From Candidatus Brocadia sinica JPN1 (lineage in GTDB: Bacteria; Planctomycetota; Brocadiia; Brocadiales; Brocadiaceae): a stretch of DNA of 64,000 nt. Positions 18,805 through 34,325 of this stretch are shown here, one piece after another (position 1 is the first letter of the stretch; every line of letters begins with the position of its first letter). The position numbers and the translations under genes were made by a program. The notes under the pieces are model-generated. The model had not been told where the DNA came from, did not search any database, and saw only the letters and a list, made by a program, of their open reading frames with translations. The stretch is taken from positions 496,001-560,000 of the forward strand of contig NZ_BAFN01000001.1 in NCBI RefSeq assembly GCF_000949635.1, written 5' to 3'.

Positions 18805-19226
18805 AAAACAATACAAATCTCTTTGTACGTTTCAAACAGTTTATAGTTGTGTATAAGGGTGGATGAAGCGAACAGAGTGGATCAAATGAACTTTTTGTTT
18901 CAAAAGTGGGTAAGAACTGTTATAAATTGCCATTTTTTGCACTTGTTTTGTCGCTTTTTAGCCAATAAAGTAGGGAATAAATCTCACGAAATAGGGTGAA
19001 ATTGCCCATTTGACCCAGTCTGAAAGCGAACCTACCCCTGAGTCCCCTTCCAGGAGGGGATTGAGAGATGGATATTGTGAAGGTGGATTCGGCGCAAAAG
19101 ACCTCGTCTTAATTGTTCGACTGGGCGCTCACGACGAAGTCTACCCTATTCATACTTAATTTTTAACAAAATGGTTAAGTTTTCATGTGATTAGCCTTAT
19201 CATCCTTGTTAGCGACTAAATCACGC
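18805..19226. other. 422-bp gene-free gap
   Basis: No ORF, RNA gene or clear terminator is visible between the repeat protein and mprF. The gap holds a degenerate GC-richer patch (about 19030-19142) that ends in a 28-bp sequence shared with 31413-31440. The last 60 bp before mprF are AT-rich and probably contain its promoter, without recognisable boxes. Confidence 0.6.
19115..19142. repeat. Dispersed 28-bp repeat, copy 1
   Basis: It matches 31413-31440 in 27 of 28 positions, in the same orientation. It contains the core GCGCTCACGACGAAGTCT. Both copies lie in gene-free gaps. It looks like part of an interspersed non-coding repeat family; no terminal repeats or target duplications can be defined. 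Confidence 0.75.
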
Positions 19227-21776
19227 ATGGGAAATAAATTTCTCCGCAACCTTAATCCTTTATTTGGCGTTTTACTCTTTACCGCAACACTTTGGGTGCT
19301 CCATTATGAACTAAAAGAGTATCACTATCATGATGTGCTGCGCCAATTGAAGGCGCTTCCAACTCAGCGCCTTCTTCTCGCCCTCCTGTTTACCTCCCTT
19401 GGTTATTTAGTACTGATAGGATATGACTTTCTTGCCCTTCGCTATGTAAATCATCCACTTAAGTACGGCAAGATTGCTACCGCCGGTTTCATAGGTTATG
19501 CATTCAGCAACAGTATTGGAGTTTCCATGCTTGCAGCGGTACGTTATCGGCTCTACTCGTCCTGGGGGCTTTCTCCGGTTGATATCACGAAAGTTGTTGC
19601 CTTCTGTGGCCTGGCTTTCTGGTTAGGCATCTTTACCGTCGGAGGGGTGCTTTTCCTCATTGAACCATTTGAAATTCCTTCAGTAATCCACTTTCGCTTT
19701 GTGTCTTTACCATATCTTGGGATACTCTTCGTTGTCTTTATTACAGGATACTTGTTGTTTAGCGCCTTGAAAAAGAAACCTCTAAAAATTTTCAGATGGG
19801 AGTTTTCTGTACCCTCTCTAAAATTTTCTCTTTCCTCGACAGTAATAGCTTGTCTGGACGTGATGCTGAACGGAAGCGTACTTTATGTCTTGCTCCCCTC
19901 TCATGAAAACTTGCCTTATCCAAAGATTATTGGCATCTTTCTACTATCACAGATAGCAGGAATAGTCAGCCAGGTCCCCGGAGGGCTTGGAATCATTGAA
20001 ACAGTAATTCTCTTTTTTCTCTCGCCTATGCTACCAGTTTCTGACATCCTTGGATCGCTTTTAGCGTTCAGAGGAATATACTATTTACTGCCAATGTGTT
20101 TTGCCACTGTTCTTCTGGGTATGCATGAATTCATCCAAAGAAAAGAGGCATTCAAACTGATTGCCCGTATCTTTGGACAATGGGTGCCGGAGATTGTACC
20201 AAACATACTCTCTCTTGCCACTTTTGTGGGAGGTACAATTCTGCTTTTTTCCGGATCAGTTCCGGCTGAAAAAGTTCGTATGTTGTGGATTAAGGATATA
20301 ATCCCACTACCAGTTATGGAGATCTCCCATTTTTTTGGCAGCCTCGCGGGTATTTTGCTCCTTATACTAGCCTGGGGACTGCAACGAAGACTTAACGCCG
20401 CATACCCCCTTATTGTGGCCCTTCTTATTGCAGGAATTGTCTTTTCCCTGCTTAAAGGATTCGATTACGAGGAAGCGATCATTCTTGCAATCATGTTGGG
20501 CGCACTCCTGCCTTCCCGCAGGCATTTCTACCGCAAAACATCTCTCATAAACGAACCGTTTACTCAAGGATGGATTACGGCTATTGTTTTTGTTATGCTT
20601 TGTTCGGCCTGGCTAGGACTTTTCTCTTACAAGCACGTCGAATATTCGGATGAGTTATGGTGGCATTTCAGCCTGTCGGGAGATGCCCCCCGATCTCTCC
20701 GTGCTGCCGTGGGAGTCGGGGTTTTAGCGCTTTGTTTCGCTGTGTTTAAACTCCTTCGCCCAGCCTTCACAAAACCCTCTCTTCCTCTCATGGCAGATTT
20801 AGATATGATCCATTCCCTGGTATATAGTTCAAAAAATACGTATGCCAACACAGCACTGCTTGGAGATAAATCTTTCCTACTCAGCGAACGCAGAAATGCA
20901 TTCATTATGTATGCTATCAGCGGCAGGAGTTGGGTGGCATTTCGTGACCCGGTTGGCCCTGAAAGCGAAATATCTGAACTTATCTGGAAATTTCGCGAGA
21001 TGTGTGACCGTAATGACGGATGGACAGTCTTCTATGAAGTCAATCGAACGAATCTCCCTATTTATATCGATCTTGGCCTAACATTACTTAAACTCGGAGA
21101 AGAGGCCCGCGTTTCCTTATCGAACTTTTCTCTTGAAGGCAGGGTTCATAAAGGACTACGCCATACCCACAATCAGCTTGAGAAAGAGGGTTGTATTTTT
21201 GAACTGATTCCAACGGTCAAAGTCCCCCCGTTACTGCCGGAATTCAAGATAATATCAGACTCCTGGCTGGCAAAAAAAAATATTACCGAAAAAGGATTCT
21301 GCACAGGGTTTTTTGAGACAGAATACCTGAAAAATTTCCCTGCCGGAATAGTAAGAAAAAATGGCAAAATCATTGCCTTTGTGAATATCTGGCAAGGAGC
21401 GGAGAAAGAGGAGCTTTCGTTAGATCTTATGCGATATCTCCCTGATGCCCCACATGGCGTCATGGAATATCTGTTCATCGAGCTCATGCTGTGGGGAAAA
21501 CAGGATGGATATAAGTGGTTCAACCTGGGAATGGCACCTTTCTCAGGGCTTGAGGAACACGCCCTTGCGCCTCTCTGGAACAGACTTGGGGCGTTAGTTT
21601 TCCGTCACGGAGAACATTTTTTTAACTTCCAGGGATTGCGACAATACAAGGAAAAGTTTGGTCCCGAATGGGAACCAAAATATCTGGCGTCTCCAGGCGG
21701 TTTAATACTACCACGTATCCTTACCAACATTGCTTTCCTCATTTCAAGAGGAACTAAGGGCGTTGTTGCAATTTGA
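19227..21776 (+). CDS. mprF: Bifunctional phosphatidylglycerol aminoacyltransferase/flippase
   Basis: An MprF-family protein of 849 residues from the ATG at 19227 (a TTG 21 bp upstream is also open). The N-terminal half (about 1-480) has some 12-14 membrane helices forming the flippase, with GFIGYAFSNSIGVSMLAAVRYRLY and QVPGGLGIIETVILF. The C-terminal half (about 520-849) is the cytoplasmic DUF2156 synthase with FRDPVGPE, the GFCTGFFETEYLKNFP region and WFNLGMAPFSGL. Members transfer Lys or Ala from tRNA to phosphatidylglycerol and flip the product, lowering surface charge. The amino acid used cannot be told. A four-helix protein follows 60 bp downstream. Confidence 0.93.
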   Translation: MGNKFLRNLNPLFGVLLFTATLWVLHYELKEYHYHDVLRQLKALPTQRLLLALLFTSLGYLVLIGYDFLALRYVNHPLKYGKIATAGFIGYAFSNSIGVSMLAAVRYRLYSSWGLSPVDITKVVAFCGLAFWLGIFTVGGVLFLIEPFEIPSVIHFRFVSLPYLGILFVVFITGYLLFSALKKKPLKIFRWEFSVPSLKFSLSSTVIACLDVMLNGSVLYVLLPSHENLPYPKIIGIFLLSQIAGIVSQVPGGLGIIETVILFFLSPMLPVSDILGSLLAFRGIYYLLPMCFATVLLGMHEFIQRKEAFKLIARIFGQWVPEIVPNILSLATFVGGTILLFSGSVPAEKVRMLWIKDIIPLPVMEISHFFGSLAGILLLILAWGLQRRLNAAYPLIVALLIAGIVFSLLKGFDYEEAIILAIMLGALLPSRRHFYRKTSLINEPFTQGWITAIVFVMLCSAWLGLFSYKHVEYSDELWWHFSLSGDAPRSLRAAVGVGVLALCFAVFKLLRPAFTKPSLPLMADLDMIHSLVYSSKNTYANTALLGDKSFLLSERRNAFIMYAISGRSWVAFRDPVGPESEISELIWKFREMCDRNDGWTVFYEVNRTNLPIYIDLGLTLLKLGEEARVSLSNFSLEGRVHKGLRHTHNQLEKEGCIFELIPTVKVPPLLPEFKIISDSWLAKKNITEKGFCTGFFETEYLKNFPAGIVRKNGKIIAFVNIWQGAEKEELSLDLMRYLPDAPHGVMEYLFIELMLWGKQDGYKWFNLGMAPFSGLEEHALAPLWNRLGALVFRHGEHFFNFQGLRQYKEKFGPEWEPKYLASPGGLILPRILTNIAFLISRGTKGVVAI

Positions 21777-22463: not shown

Positions 22464-23519
22464 ATGAAAGTCTCCAAAAGCATCTTCTTTGGTCTTATGT
22501 CAGCATTACTTACCGCCTCTATAGCACCGGCAGAGTCACATGAAATACTTATACCACAAGTAAAACCGATCTTTCTCTCTCCTTCCCTTAACAGCCAAAG
22601 CCCTTTCTCTGCCTTCACAGCCTCGAATATAAATGACAATCCGGAGGATTCCCAATTTAAAAAGCTCAAACGCTGGTATGAAACAACGACCCAAAGGAGT
22701 TCTACTTTTACCGTGGGCTTTCAACCATACGGAGTGGCCTTTGATGGTACCAACATCTGGGTAACGAATTCCGGGAGCATCAGCATTACAAAACTAAGGG
22801 CAAGTGATGGCACTGTGCTTGGCACCTATGCCGTGGGCTACATCCCAAGAGGTGTGGCCTTTGATGGCGCTAACATCTGGGTGGCAAATTCCGGCAGCGA
22901 CAGCATAACAAAGTTGAGAGCAAGTGACGGAACCGTGCTCGGCACCTATGCCGTGGGCTTCTATCCCTATGGGGTGGCCTTTGATGGGGCAAATATCTGG
23001 GTAACAAATTCTGGCAGTAACGATGTGACAAAATTGAGGGCGAGCGATGGAACCGTGCTTGGCACGTATACCGTGGGTTTGAACCCAAGAGGAGTGATCT
23101 TTGACGGCACTAACGTGTGGGTGGCAAATTCTAACAGCAATAACATAACAAGGCTGAGGGCAAGTGACGGGGTTGTACTCAACACCTATGCTGTAGGTTG
23201 GATCCCAAAATGGATAGTCTTTGACGGTGCCAATATTTGGGTAACAAATTATGGCAGTAGCAATGTGACAAAGCTGAGGGCAAGTGACGGAAACGTACTC
23301 GGTACCTATACCGTGGGAATTTACCCGTATGGGATAGCCTTTGATGGTGTTAATATCTGGATTACGAATGCCGGCAGTAACGATGTAACAAAAATGAGGG
23401 CGAGTGACGGCGCCGTGCTCCGTACCTATGGTGTAGGCATCAACCCAAGGGGCGTGGTCTTTGATGGGACCAGCATCTGGGTAGTAAGCTATGACAGTGG
23501 TATGATAACGAAACTGTAA
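22464..23519 (+). CDS. Secreted seven-repeat beta-propeller protein (YncE/YVTN-like)
   Basis: A 351-residue exported protein. The ATG has gaaagga 6 bases upstream (22451-22457), and a signal peptide (MKVSKSIFFGLMSALLTAS) follows. From about residue 85 there are seven repeats of 40 residues, consensus VGxxPxGVAFDGxNIWVTN and SGSNDVTKLRASDG. Seven blades of this size make a complete YVTN-type propeller. No enzyme motif is seen, so a binding or surface role is likely. It lies 107 bp upstream of an ABC permease gene, on the same strand. Confidence 0.85.
   Translation: MKVSKSIFFGLMSALLTASIAPAESHEILIPQVKPIFLSPSLNSQSPFSAFTASNINDNPEDSQFKKLKRWYETTTQRSSTFTVGFQPYGVAFDGTNIWVTNSGSISITKLRASDGTVLGTYAVGYIPRGVAFDGANIWVANSGSDSITKLRASDGTVLGTYAVGFYPYGVAFDGANIWVTNSGSNDVTKLRASDGTVLGTYTVGLNPRGVIFDGTNVWVANSNSNNITRLRASDGVVLNTYAVGWIPKWIVFDGANIWVTNYGSSNVTKLRASDGNVLGTYTVGIYPYGIAFDGVNIWITNAGSNDVTKMRASDGAVLRTYGVGINPRGVVFDGTSIWVVSYDSGMITKL
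22715..23515 (+). repeat. Tandem 120-bp coding repeat (7 units)
   Basis: The blades of the propeller protein are exactly 120 bp at DNA level, for example the ttygaygg motif recurs at about 22740, 22860, 22980, 23100, 23220, 23340 and 23460. Unit identity is high enough that slippage or unequal crossover could change copy number. Confidence 0.85.
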
Positions 23520-26843: not shown

Positions 26844-28004
26844 TTACTTCATTAATTCCACTGATGTAGAATAAAAAGGCACTGTAACCTTACTGAGGGG
26901 TATGGGTACTTCATCGGCCTTCTTGGGGAATATTAAATATTCAATCATATCCAGTCGCAATGTTAGCTTTTTAAAGGCTGCATTACGTGGAATTTTATAC
27001 TTGTAATAAAATGATTTACACTTTCCTGGCATTAATCTCTCATCTTTTACCTCGGTAGGGTATGTGAGGAACTCAAATGTCCGTGTGATAAAATATTCCT
27101 TCAACCCCATCTCCCTTCCATTTTCATCCAGTACCGCCACACGGGCGGCAATGCCCCTGACCGGTCAGCCTGTTGGTACGCGATGCCCAGCCCCAGTATT
27201 GGTAACCCTTATTTCACCCTTTACTTTATCTCCAATTTTATAAGCATCCTTTTCCATTTTCAATTCTACTTTAAGGGCATTTCTTAATTCGTCCGGGTTG
27301 CGAGAACTTTTCTGATCATGCATTCCATAAACACACTTTGGTCTTCCCAGTGAGGCAAACCCTTCTTTCCTCAGCATATGACAATCCTGGCATGTCTCCT
27401 TTTTACCAGATTTTATGTACTCATCGCTGGTATAGCATGTCTTTTTAATCCGTGCCCGTGGAAAGCCCCATGAATGACACGTGTAACAGAACTCAGACTT
27501 TTGAAAAGATGGATCGTATTTACCAGAGTGTGGCGCTTCCCCTTCTTTTATCTCTCGGGGTCCGTACAGGGTCTTATTCCTTAAGTGACACACCACACAC
27601 GTTACCCCTTCTTTTATAAGCATTGTATCAAAATCCCGATTTTTTATTGCAACAAAAGGTAGAGGTCCCGTTTCTTTAAAACCCCGTAAAATTTTGGGTT
27701 TCTGTTCCAGCATGGGGAAATGACAATTGGAGCAAAAGGGTGGATTATTCCTTACCGTCCAGCATGCCTGAAAGACGGGGCTTGTCGATGACTTGCTGTG
27801 CATGGATTCCCGCCACTGGTCATAAATTTCCTGGTGACAATCCTTACATGAGTCGGCGCTATGTAAAGGGATGCCTGGTGGTAACTCTAATCGAGGAATA
27901 TAATTTGACGGGCCAATAAATGTAACACATGCATCATTGCCCCATAAAACACGGGGCACGGTTATACCAACAACGAATACCAGGATTATTTTAAACATGT
28001 TCAT
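26844..28004 (-). CDS. Secreted pentaheme c-type cytochrome, interrupted by one TGA
   Basis: An exported cytochrome with a signal peptide (MNMFKIILVFVVGITVPRVL) and five CXXCH sites: CKDCH, CSNCH, CVVCH, CYTCH and CQDCH. A C-terminal Ig-like domain begins around residue 240 with VTNTGAGHRVPTG. There the frame meets a TGA (27165-27167) and continues at once as PVRGIAARVAVLDENG to a stop at 26844. The two parts (27165-28004 and 26844-27140) are one gene. A strong ribosome binding site (aaggagga) precedes the ATG. It lies 132 bp downstream of the redox-barrel fusion gene, so an electron-transfer partnership is plausible. It could be a pseudogene, a truncated but functional heme domain, or a sequence error. 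Confidence 0.8.
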
Positions 28005-28136: not shown

Positions 28137-30503
28137 CTAAAACTCAATTTTTAAACCAAAGCTGGTAAGAAAGGCATCATAATCGCCCAAGAGTAACGGC
28201 TCGGCCCTGTCGTTCTGCAAAAGATACCGTGAATTAACAAAGAACGACAGAACCGTATCAGGCGATCGCAGATACTTGTAATCAATTCCCATAAAAGGCG
28301 CTGATTGAATGAAATCTGCATTATGTGATTCAGAGAAAAACTTACCATCGACTGCTAAGAAGGTATTCCCCACATCAAAATACATCTTAGACCTGAGCCG
28401 ATAAAGTAATGGATAGCCGTATGTCAGGGAAACGGCATTCACATCAAAATCCATATTATTGGCATCATTTGTTTTACGTCTATATTGATACAGCGAATAT
28501 CCCAGGGAGACCTTATGATTGTAAGGTAAATCAGAGGAAACACCTATCCCTCCATGGGAAATGCTTCCCTTTTTTCCAGCCCCTTCCTCCGTTCTGACAC
28601 CAAAGAAAGGTTCTATAAAACCAGGCTCCTGAACGTTGTCTGCCCTTGAACTTTCTATCTGTCGTAAATAATCCAGGTCCGCAAAAAGCCTTGTAAAAGA
28701 AAGGATTCCTGGAAATGGATAGTCAAGGTGCAGTCGTACCCCCTCCCTATTTTGTGGATACTTCTTTGCATCATGAAGCTGCCAACTATCCGCATACGTT
28801 GTAAAATAGGGAAGCTCATAAAAGAGACCCGGAGGTTGGACATCATCGGGTCTTTCCATCTTTATCACAAAGGGATCATATTTTGGTTCAACAAATATGC
28901 CTTCCAGGTTAAAACTTGCCCTCCCGATGGTGCCACTAACGCCTGTATTAAACAGATTTCCATGAACGTCCACTCCATCACTTCTAATTGGCCGATAAAT
29001 ACTATGGGCATAGGCAGCCCATACCTTATAGGTCGGTAGAAAATTATACGAGTAATCAGCACCAAGGACAAACTCGTCCTGCCTCCCTACTTTATTGTAA
29101 GGAGCTTCCCACCGTACAGAATTGCCATCCACCGTACCCTGTAAGGGCGAATCTATTTCTGATGTCGATGCACCTCTATTAAACGGGCTCATAAAGTTGA
29201 AGCCAAATTTCATATCTTCATATTCCCTTCCCAGATAGAATCCACCCAACCAACTGGTAGAGTCTGAATCTTCGGGTAATTCTGCAAAGTATACCTCGTA
29301 CAAGGTTGATGGGATAAAGAAGGGATTATAAAATCGCCTGACAACGTTGACTCCATAAAATGGCAAATAATCCGGTCCGTAAAAGGTCGGATTGGGTTCG
29401 CCTTTGAGTACGTAGTCACCAACGTGCAGTGGGGTAAATGCGCCCACGGACATAGTCGTGTCTAAGGGTTGGTACCGAGCCCAGAACGTATTGAGTGAGA
29501 CGTCGTTTGAGTGTCCTACAAAGGGATTAGAAAAATACGGCGGGGTAACACCCCAGATATCACCTACCCCGACATCGCCACCCAGACCATACGCATCCAC
29601 CTCCAGACCCATGGTCCAATCCTCCGACATATCCGCATAGACACCTGCCCTTGCCCTTGTTGTTATTGCCGCTCCTTCTTCAATGGAAAATACATTTAGT
29701 GGTCTCGGTAGTGTATATGTTGGTTCCCACTCCTTGTGCATCCTCTGGGTAAGAAATCCCATTGTATAATCAAATGCGCCTTGAGTTTTTGCAGTATCGC
29801 CTTTGAAGTCAACGCCGATACCCGTTGCTATAGACTCGATGCTAAAATTAGTCCTATATCTATCCGATTCGGGTTTTGTCTGAAACCAACTGGATTCTGG
29901 CTTTATCTCTTGAAGTGCATCGGCAACCTTATCCATGTCCAATCCAAGCATAGGGGATCTGAGGTATTTATCCCTTATGTCTTCAGTCTTACGTTTACTT
30001 GTACCAATCCTTTCCAGTTCTTTTCTGAGTATCCAGATGCGTGTACCAGGACCACTGCTAAAGGTTACAAGGCCGCTTTTGTCCACGACAAAAGTATTTG
30101 TTTGTGGTCAGGTCTCCGAAATATATTCACCTACGTAATCCTTTACTACCTTAAAATCTGTATCTATCAGGTATGGATAAGGAATGTCTACCCTCTCGGC
30201 AAATTCAACGGTTTGATAGGTCTTGGTTAACATACTTATGGCAAGAATTTCAATATCATAATCTTCCATGAGTCCTTGCATAACCTTTGCCCTGCCTTCA
30301 CAACCGCTACAATAATCAGAAAACCAGATAATGACGGGCTTTACACCTCGATATGCAGACAGCGTAAAATCTTTGCCCCGGGTGCTGGGAAGTGGAAAAT
30401 CTGGGGCTTCAGTACCAACCTGTATGGTGTCTGCGCAGACTATACCAGGTATGGCGATAGAAATAATAAGGTAGGAAGAGAATAAAGATAACCACAGTTT
30501 CAC
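28137..30503 (-). CDS. Thioredoxin-fold domain fused to outer-membrane beta-barrel, interrupted by one TGA
   Basis: I place the start at the GTG 30503 (ggaggt 10 bases upstream), giving a signal peptide KLWLSLFSSYLIISIAIPG. Residues about 28-165 form an AhpC/TlpA-like fold (GTEAPDFPLPSTRGKDFTL, FSDYCSGCEGR with a CxxC, then TFVVDKSGLV). A TGA at 30108-30110 falls just before PQTNTFVVD, in frame. The rest (28137-30086, about 650 residues) continues without a break into a long region of alternating aromatic strands ending in SFGLKIEF, typical of outer-membrane barrels. N-terminal extension to 30668 would translate a palindromic repeat and is rejected. A pentaheme cytochrome follows. The barrel family is not recognised. 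Confidence 0.7.
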
Positions 30504-30523
30504 CTGAAAAATACCTCCTGCAC

Positions 30524-32036: not shown

Positions 32037-32342
32037 TCACGAATACCACCCTTCAAGTGGTACAGCTTCCTTTAATCCTTTACCTTTTAATACCTCGCAT
32101 GCTTTGGAACTGCTATTTCCGCTTCCACAATGGATAATCACTTTTTTGTCCTTGGGAATCTTATGGATATTCTGTTCAAGCTCTTGAACTGGAATGAGAT
32201 TAGCGCCTTTAATATGTACTTCGTTATATTTTTCTTTAGTTCTGACATCTACTACGATCACATCTTTTTCCTTATCTATCAATTCCTTTGTCTGTTTAGC
32301 TGATATATCTTTTACTTCATATGAGTCCTTTTTTACATCCAT
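32037..32342 (-). CDS. Rhodanese-domain protein with frameshifted C-terminus
   Basis: A 101-residue single-domain rhodanese. The CH2A motif reads VIVVDVRTKEKYNEVHIKGA and the active-site loop is HCGSGNSS with catalytic Cys. As read, it stops early after PLEGWYS. Removing one G from the GGG run (plus-strand CCC at 32049-32051) restores the standard ending EGGIREWQAEGYQVEKT and a stop at 32000. So the intact gene should span 32000-32342. Family members carry sulfane sulfur between thiols. It lies in a region with another rhodanese fusion and a cysteine-bearing ArsR regulator. Confidence 0.85.
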   Translation of the reverse strand: MDVKKDSYEVKDISAKQTKELIDKEKDVIVVDVRTKEKYNEVHIKGANLIPVQELEQNIHKIPKDKKVIIHCGSGNSSSKACEVLKGKGLKEAVPLEGWYS

Positions 32343-32410
32343 TTAAATCCCTCCCTTAAATACGTTATAAGTTCATGCCATACATGATTTTGATGATTTA
32401 ATACCTCCCT

Positions 32411-33235
32411 TTACCTTCGTGTTGCAATAACTTCGAGATATTCTGATTCTACGTGTGTTGAATTATCCTTTGCCTGGTTATGATCTAACCACAGCCGCTC
32501 TAAATCACGACGCAGAGCCACTTGTTTTTCAGGGTTGGCTGTGAGCGCTTCGAAAGCCCGCTGGGTTGGACCGTAATAAACGCGCCAGAACTCCACTACA
32601 TCGGCAGGAGTAAAAGGAAATTTGAAGGAAATAAGCCGCCTGGTTAGCCGCAGGTCTGAAATATTCTCCCGCAGTCTTTCGCACACGGTCTCTTCATCTC
32701 CCCATAGAACGGGTGACGGCATAAGAGGCGGAGGTGGCACATGAGCGGCGATAGTCTTGAACACCTGACCGATAAAGCCGGTAGGTGTCCAGTTTGCCAA
32801 CGCAATACGGCCACCAGTTCGGCAAACGCGTGTCAACTCCTGTGCCGCCTTTTCGGGACGAGGTGCGAACATCACACCGAACATACTCACGATGATATCG
32901 AAGGACGCATCATTATACGGCAACTTCTCCGCGTCACCTTCATCGAATTGGATCGTCAGTCCTTCGGCCTGAGCACGAGATCGTCCTTGTGCAAGTAAAT
33001 TGATGGCAATATCTACGCCTGTGACAATTGCACCTCTGCGTGCGGCTGGAATAGCCAGATTACCGGTTCCACACGCTACGTCAAGCACGTTCGTCCCCTG
33101 TGCAAAATTGAGGCGTTCGATAAACTCGGTGGCACCTGATTCATAAGACCTGGCAATTTGTGTGAAATCACCAGCCATCCAGGTTGCTTTTAAACGAACT
33201 TTAAAAGATTCCATCTCAGGTGTTAATGTGCTCAT
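32411..33235 (-). CDS. Class I SAM-dependent methyltransferase (UbiE-like)
   Basis: A 274-residue methyltransferase. Motif I is [19 protein letters not shown] (about residue 50), followed by [11 protein letters not shown], then [29 protein letters not shown], typical of the UbiE/COQ5 group. The middle part [15 protein letters not shown] and a helical C-terminus are shared with small-molecule methyltransferases of unknown substrate. It sits between the rhodanese and the TVP38-rhodanese fusion on the same strand. Confidence 0.87.
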
Positions 33236-33350
33236 AGTATAACTCCTTGTTAATATGAAAAATGTGCATTGATCGTATTAATTGACACGGCTTATACCGT
33301 AGCCGCTCAAACGGTATTGAAAGCATCGAACTGTGGCCGAATGCGTTAAA

Positions 33351-34325
33351 CTACCTCTCCATCGGCAGACCGACATGATTCCATTGCTCCATGCCGCCCC
33401 GCAGTACAAAAACATCCGTAAATCCTGCTTTTGTAAGCAACTCTGCGGCTCTCGTTGAACGATGGTCAGTACGGCAAACAACGACCATAAATTGCTTCTT
33501 ATACGACTTTAACTCATCCATACGGCGAGATAAATCTTCAATGGAGATGTTTATGGATCCAGCGATGTGACCAAGGTCTCCAGCGTATTCCTCTGCACTT
33601 CTAACATCCAACAAAAACACGTCTTCTCCTTTGTCCAGTAGCTGCTTAAGTTCCGTAGCGTTGAGCATGCGTGCAGGTTCCTTGCGCAGGCATTTGATGA
33701 GCCGTGGTATAAATGCTACAAGGGCGAACAATCCTAAGCCCAGGAGTGATTTCTGGATTATACCCTCGCCACCCGCCACTGCATTGCGTCCTGCATATCC
33801 GAGGTATGTGTAAGCTATAGCGCCAGGTAGCATGCAAACGTAGGACGTAACCACGTAATGGAACAGGCGGATACGCGTAAGCCCCAGGGCATAGTTCAGC
33901 AGATTAAAGGGAAACAGTGGTACCAGACGAACGAAGGCAACAAAGCGCCAACCTTCGGCTTCTACACCCTCAACCAACTGCCTTAACCAACCACCAGTCT
34001 TGCGGGATACCAAATCAGATGCAAGATAGCGGGCAATAAGAAATGCCATTGTGGCACCAATAGTTGCACCTGTAAGGTTGTAAAAAGTTCCCCAAACAGG
34101 TCCGAATAGCACACCGCCCGCAATCGTCAGAACCGACCCCGGCATGAGCAGCACAGTCGAGATTGCATAAATACCAATGAACAAAAGCGGGGCCATGATC
34201 CCTGTACCTGCAAGCCAACTCTCAAGTGCGGTGACATCGAATTGCTTGCGGTAAGTAACCGCAGTTGCAATCCCGGCTATCAGAAAGACGAACACGATAA
34301 TGCGAATGATGTTAGTAACCTTCAT
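33351..34325 (-). CDS. TVP38/TMEM64 (VTT) membrane protein fused to a rhodanese domain
   Basis: A 324-residue fusion. Residues about 1-215 are a DedA/VTT-type membrane domain with GSVLTIAGGVLFGPVWGTFYN and FVRLVPLFPFNLLNYALGLT, the TVP38 signatures. Residues about 220-324 form a rhodanese domain with VFLLDVRSAEEYAGDLGHIAGS and active-site loop VVCRTDHRS with a catalytic Cys, ending LRGGMEQWNHVGLP. Similar fusions occur in bacteria. I infer membrane-proximal sulfane-sulfur handling. It follows the hydroxylase-family gene by 11 bp. Confidence 0.9.
   Translation of the reverse strand: MKVTNIIRIIVFVFLIAGIATAVTYRKQFDVTALESWLAGTGIMAPLLFIGIYAISTVLLMPGSVLTIAGGVLFGPVWGTFYNLTGATIGATMAFLIARYLASDLVSRKTGGWLRQLVEGVEAEGWRFVAFVRLVPLFPFNLLNYALGLTRIRLFHYVVTSYVCMLPGAIAYTYLGYAGRNAVAGGEGIIQKSLLGLGLFALVAFIPRLIKCLRKEPARMLNATELKQLLDKGEDVFLLDVRSAEEYAGDLGHIAGSINISIEDLSRRMDELKSYKKQFMVVVCRTDHRSTRAAELLTKAGFTDVFVLRGGMEQWNHVGLPMER

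Follow-up and report, generated by a model that had tools for sequence, protein, structure and literature searches.

In Geobacter, the extHIJKL cluster comprises genes for a rhodanese lipoprotein, for ExtI, which is porin-like, for a small protein, and for the pentaheme selenocysteine (Sec) cytochrome ExtKL, and the reduction of selenite and tellurite is impaired when ExtI is missing (PMC5877670; PMC6148476). Sec is also found in thioredoxin folds. According to the accessible portion of the 2026 inventory of prokaryotic selenoproteins, Prx-like thiol:disulfide oxidoreductases of the PF00578 family have their Sec within UxxC, UxxU, or TxxU motifs, many thioredoxin-fold selenoproteins are peroxidases or oxidoreductases, and Sec-bearing outer-membrane barrels exist as well, namely NF041027 (GSU2204 family MtrB/PioB) and NF049945 (TonB-dependent receptor) (PMC13188914). 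In porin–cytochrome conduits of the MtrCAB type, an MtrB/PioB barrel is combined with an outer-surface multiheme cytochrome. A protein joining a Sec-containing thioredoxin domain to an outer-membrane barrel is absent from the same portion of the inventory (PMC13188914) and was not found in a wider literature search; a search for selenocysteine in anammox bacteria gave passing references only. Sec cytochromes of the ExtKL type and Sec-bearing barrels are already known; the fusion of a Sec-thioredoxin domain with a barrel, found only in Brocadiaceae, is new. An earlier reading made from the sequence alone had stated that no family with this architecture was described. This holds for the fusion within the literature searched, but the locus has a precedent in ExtKL/MccSep and in the Geobacter extHIJKL cluster.

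The window analysed here, a stretch of 64,000 nucleotides, belongs to a genome of 4.08 Mb in three contigs, whose closest relatives on named contigs are Brocadiaceae (anammox planctomycetes). On the minus strand, as shown by the reading of open frames and by orthologs, it contains a selenoprotein gene (28137..30503, the extent given by the sequence-only reading) whose product of 788 aa, counting Sec132, combines an exported thioredoxin domain with a domain resembling an outer-membrane barrel. From 30503 down to 28137 the gene is a single frame of 788 residues once its lone TGA, codon 132, is left open. The GTG start is preceded by an AGGAGG ribosome-binding site (30514..30519, minus strand). 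Residues 1–24 (30432..30503; VKLWLSLFSSYLIISIAIPGIVCA-D) resemble a signal peptide, and approximately residues 25–185 (29949..30431) form an AhpC/TSA-type thioredoxin-fold domain, which scores 63.2 bits against PF00578 (gathering cut-off 26) and so belongs to this family; its closest matches are ResA and AhpC/TSA proteins or peroxiredoxins. The CxxC motif, C65-S-G-C68 (30300..30311), is intact, and both cysteines are invariant in orthologs. The UGA codon (30108..30110) lies outside this motif and is followed by a proline codon. Its product, Sec132, is placed only in the cis-proline loop region, because the ResA alignments leave an ambiguity of two residues; for this reason, a more precise assignment, to the residue directly before the cis-proline, was dropped. 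Approximately residues 190–788 (28140..29936) constitute the barrel-like domain. The signal peptide, thioredoxin domain, and barrel very probably make up one exported chain, as these sequence features suggest. Upstream of the gene, the segment 30520–30680 is repeat-like and looks like a non-coding dispersed repeat element; its translated pieces match several sites in relatives (P0001 residues 11–41 in G013 and G002) and one site elsewhere in the same genome.

The fusion protein shares the PF00578 fold family, a redox site, and a UGA-encoded Sec with the Prx-like selenoproteins. However, in the latter Sec occupies the CxxC or peroxidatic position, whereas here it is located in the cis-proline loop region and a barrel is attached. 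In other AhpC/TSA-like genes of planctomycetes (L079, L082, L085, L096), a TGA occupies the customary peroxidatic or CxxC position, and these are probably ordinary Prx-type selenoproteins. With regard to the known Sec-bearing barrels, the fusion matches neither NF041027 nor NF049945, and neither of these is described with an N-terminal AhpC/TSA domain in the accessible part of the source (PMC13188914).

The last approximately 600 residues of the fusion are free of cysteine, rich in Gly, Phe, and Tyr, and end with GLKIEF, the C-terminal residue being Phe. The beta alternation of this part exceeds that of shuffled sequences (z 3.2); of the 13 window proteins compared with it, just one, a BNR-repeat protein, had a higher score. 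Pfam comparison gave weak, sub-threshold matches to outer-membrane barrel families, and the MtrB/PioB model gave no match. These features suggest that the C-terminal part is likely an outer-membrane beta-barrel, in line with what the sequence-only reading had proposed. The domain was present in 7 of 392 sampled planctomycete genomes, all of them Brocadiaceae, and nowhere in this sample did it form an intact gene of its own; the two parts always stood in one frame, and the earlier proposal of a single chain across the TGA was thereby borne out. Plasmid and phage collections returned generic ResA and multiheme cytochrome matches only.

The fusion gene is followed, on the minus strand, by a gene (26844..28004) that encodes a pentaheme selenocytochrome of 386 aa, ExtKL/MccSep-like, with five CXXCH motifs and Sec280. 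The sequence-only reading had recognized this pentaheme neighbor correctly, with no mention of its in-frame TGA (27165..27167). In the alignment to the crystallized MccSep (PDB 9WT8), Sec325 falls on codon 280. The protein has both traits of ExtKL/MccSep (NF040886; PDB 9WT8 and related structures; Geobacter GSU2937-2936), in that it has five c-type hemes and that its Sec, within the motif A-G-H-x-x-P-x-G-U-P, aligns exactly with theirs. It matches the NCBIfam model NF040886, ExtKL (seleno)protein, with an E-value of 1.3e-21 and only 76.7 bits, under the curated cut-off of 250, and differs from ExtKL in its gene neighbors and phylum. Taken together, the alignments show a divergent relative of ExtKL/MccSep. 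More distant planctomycete cytochromes have no Cys at the position of codon 280. The ExtKL model found no match in the 392 planctomycete genomes at an E-value of 1e-25, a null result which says little because the controls were equally silent.

At every intact locus seen, the fusion gene is located directly upstream of the cytochrome gene, so the synteny suggested earlier was confirmed. As in extHIJKL, an outer-membrane barrel gene adjoins the gene of a Sec pentaheme cytochrome, with rhodanese genes around. ExtI, however, is a protein of 45 kDa whose descriptions include neither a thioredoxin domain nor Sec, whereas the barrel here would bear an N-terminal Sec-thioredoxin domain; the likeness suggested between them concerns the description of the gene clusters. 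In contrast to MtrCAB-type conduits, the locus gave no match to MtrB/PioB, and no outer-surface cytochrome was seen by the barrel, which has only one multiheme gene next to it. The redox conduit or redox-controlled pore proposed in the sequence-only reading is conjectural. Further along the window, rhodanese, methyltransferase, and VTT-rhodanese genes (32037–34325), some of which recur by the orthologs, recall the rhodanese ExtH of the Geobacter ext cluster. On the other side lie a beta-propeller protein (22464–23519), whose similarity to the hydrazine synthase beta subunit is sub-threshold (it scores 45.8 bits with NF052340, where 560 is the cut-off), and a full-length MprF, the lysylphosphatidylglycerol synthase/flippase (19206–21776; NF033480, 923 bits), in this anammox genome.

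The fusion TGA is kept in eight Brocadiaceae genomes (the host, G012, G014, G017, G019, G024, G027, and G031), in G012 within an otherwise decayed copy, and the open frame past the TGA recurs along with it in the orthologs. The cytochrome TGA is kept in seven genomes (the host, G001, G017, G019, G024, G027, and G031). G032, considered as a stop-free copy of the fusion, was rejected, as its sequence reads N at the codon. The dN/dS of the fusion is 0.13–0.21 before the TGA and 0.07–0.10 in the barrel part; for the cytochrome it is 0.07–0.10 on either side. These values indicate that both halves of each gene are translated. Because the TGA and open frame recur in eight genomes, with purifying selection on both sides, the fusion TGA represents more than chance.

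The sequence-only reading had assumed tryptophan at the fusion TGA, which could be achieved through a reassigned code or leaky readthrough. Tryptophan at this codon does keep the frame open, and in both genes the nucleotide next to UGA is C; a UGA followed by C is a leaky stop context. However, TGA ends 10 of the 47 window genes examined, no other gene among them has an internal TGA, and tryptophan is encoded 237 times by TGG; a genome-wide code change was rejected, as TGA serves as a stop. The tRNA-Trp found has the anticodon CCA, and among the tRNAs typed, which leave out part of the lowest-scoring matches, UCA occurs in tRNA-Sec alone. Moreover, the cytochrome of a Sec-less relative (G020) has Cys at the codon whose aligned site in MccSep is Sec. 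Tryptophan is highly improbable on this evidence, and the residue is almost certainly selenocysteine. It could also be argued that the loci are pseudogenes, contain sequencing errors, or consist of two separate genes each, as the frames are formally interrupted and the fusion copies in G020 and G012 are truly decayed. Against this, identical TGAs occur in independently assembled genomes, and the sequence past the TGA is under purifying selection. If the TGA of the fusion acted as a stop, the barrel part would begin without a signal peptide, and a separate barrel gene is exactly what was never encountered. Such an explanation is barely credible. That the UGA encodes Sec is virtually beyond doubt for the cytochrome, and it is held with only slightly less confidence for the fusion gene.

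The Sec reading agrees with the distribution of the decoding machinery. SelA, SelB, tRNA-Sec (anticodon UCA), and SelD are all present in the host genome, and SelD (L127, G000:C1:1828841-1829767) is itself a UGA-bearing selenoprotein with the sequence CGGUAGKIP, as it is in every relative having SelD. Each genome with the TGA contains at least part of the machinery, the gaps being mostly in fragmented or incomplete assemblies. In the genus g11 (G020, G025, and G028; 99–100% complete), no SelA, SelB, tRNA-Sec, or SelD was found. In this genus, G020 has retained the cytochrome gene, where TGC (Cys) stands precisely in place of the TGA at codon 280, and its fusion gene is dead: the thioredoxin core was lost in frame, and the gene is disrupted by a frameshift, by a short duplicated stretch, and by a stop-containing insertion. 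The loss of Sec decoding, accompanied by the change of Sec to Cys in the cytochrome and the death of the fusion gene, matches the prediction of the Sec reading. No ortholog with Cys at the thioredoxin UGA position was found. The ends of the insertion in the dead gene (L107 7695-7815) are palindromic (gcactgtaaataaat ... atttatttacagcgc), which makes it resemble a small mobile element.

Both UGA codons are followed, after 21 nt, by a SECIS-like hairpin on the minus strand, with 8 bp and the loop GUG in the fusion (30076..30094) and with 7 bp and the loop CGUGU in the cytochrome (27132..27150). The bacterial SECIS model in the accessible part of the inventory requires a loop of 3–9 nt, G in the first two loop positions, spacing of 16–37 nt, and an energy of at most -7.5 kcal/mol (PMC13188914). 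Both hairpins fit the geometry; as for the energy of the bare hairpin, the cytochrome is within the limit (-10.5 kcal/mol), while the fusion falls short of it (-6.1 kcal/mol). When every TGA triplet of the window is considered, 2.5% are followed by a hairpin as good as that of the fusion and 0.44% by one as good as that of the cytochrome. In the 13 codons past the fusion TGA, the nine degenerate codons with invariant amino acids show no synonymous variation, compared with 51% gene-wide, and this stretch is the lowest window of synonymous variation in the gene; dS past the TGA is 0.21–0.42 vs 0.49–0.64 in the barrel part. In L069, the terminal hairpin pair C-G is replaced by U-A through two amino-acid changes, a compensatory exchange, but this covariation is one event and non-significant by shuffling. 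An Rfam scan around both genes detected no SECIS family, and a simple perfect-helix SECIS search detected no strong hairpin in the host SelD; for the latter reason, the presence or strength of such hairpins is weak evidence either way.

How might the two proteins work? It is proposed that the fusion would expose a periplasmic thioredoxin fold, with the CxxC and with Sec in the loop which lies against CxxC in thioredoxin folds, and that this site would sit at the barrel's periplasmic opening. The barrel would let in a small substrate, an oxidant, to be handled by the Sec/CxxC site, with which the periplasmic pentaheme selenocytochrome would swap electrons. Such a Sec-dependent periplasmic relay coupled to an outer-membrane channel is inferred from the analogy to ExtI/ExtKL, and by the same analogy the substrate may be selenite, tellurite, or another oxyanion. 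This mechanism is the one considered most likely, its topology, substrate, and direction of electron flow being part of the proposal. The fusion and the cytochrome are probably functionally paired, as their constant adjacency suggests. The reading as a whole, in which two Sec proteins, the exported fusion and the ExtKL/MccSep-like cytochrome, exchange electrons and act on an oxyanion, is favored with some reservation; oxyanion reduction as the role, taken by itself, is tentative.

The same data may be viewed differently. The AhpC/TSA domain, with ResA and peroxiredoxins as its nearest matches, would suit an envelope-protecting enzyme anchored to the outer membrane, either a thiol/selenol peroxidase or one for disulfide repair, with the cytochrome merely donating electrons, the more so as many selenoproteins of this fold, in the accessible portion of the inventory, are peroxidases or oxidoreductases (PMC13188914). 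However, Sec is not at the peroxidatic or CxxC position, and the need for a large barrel is left unexplained; this role is rather unlikely. Another view refers to the genes close by: an ArsR/SmtB-type regulator, rhodanese, VTT-rhodanese, and methyltransferase, some of them also near the orthologs, could indicate a locus for metal(loid) detoxification (arsenic, mercury, or chalcogen) instead of respiration or nutrition. Here, the neighborhood past the two genes differs among genomes, and the methyltransferase and rhodanese matches are under the curated NCBIfam cut-offs; detoxification is quite improbable.

Under the preferred reading of two cooperating selenoproteins, the locus adds a selenoprotein architecture, in which a thioredoxin domain with Sec outside CxxC continues into an outer-membrane barrel, and brings anammox planctomycetes into the range of ExtKL-like selenocytochromes. 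Standard annotation splits both genes, so the pair can readily be overlooked or taken for pseudogenes. The sister lineage without the Sec pathway offers a natural Sec-to-Cys swap along with the death of a gene, and both the ext clusters, conserved but poorly understood, and the selenium need of anammox bacteria become directly testable. It is a rather doubtful possibility that the two selenoproteins form a unit in which substrate reduction would be coupled to passage through the barrel, selenium chemistry replacing the in-barrel hemes of known conduits. If this is true, anammox bacteria would possess a redox conduit based on selenium rather than on barrel hemes.
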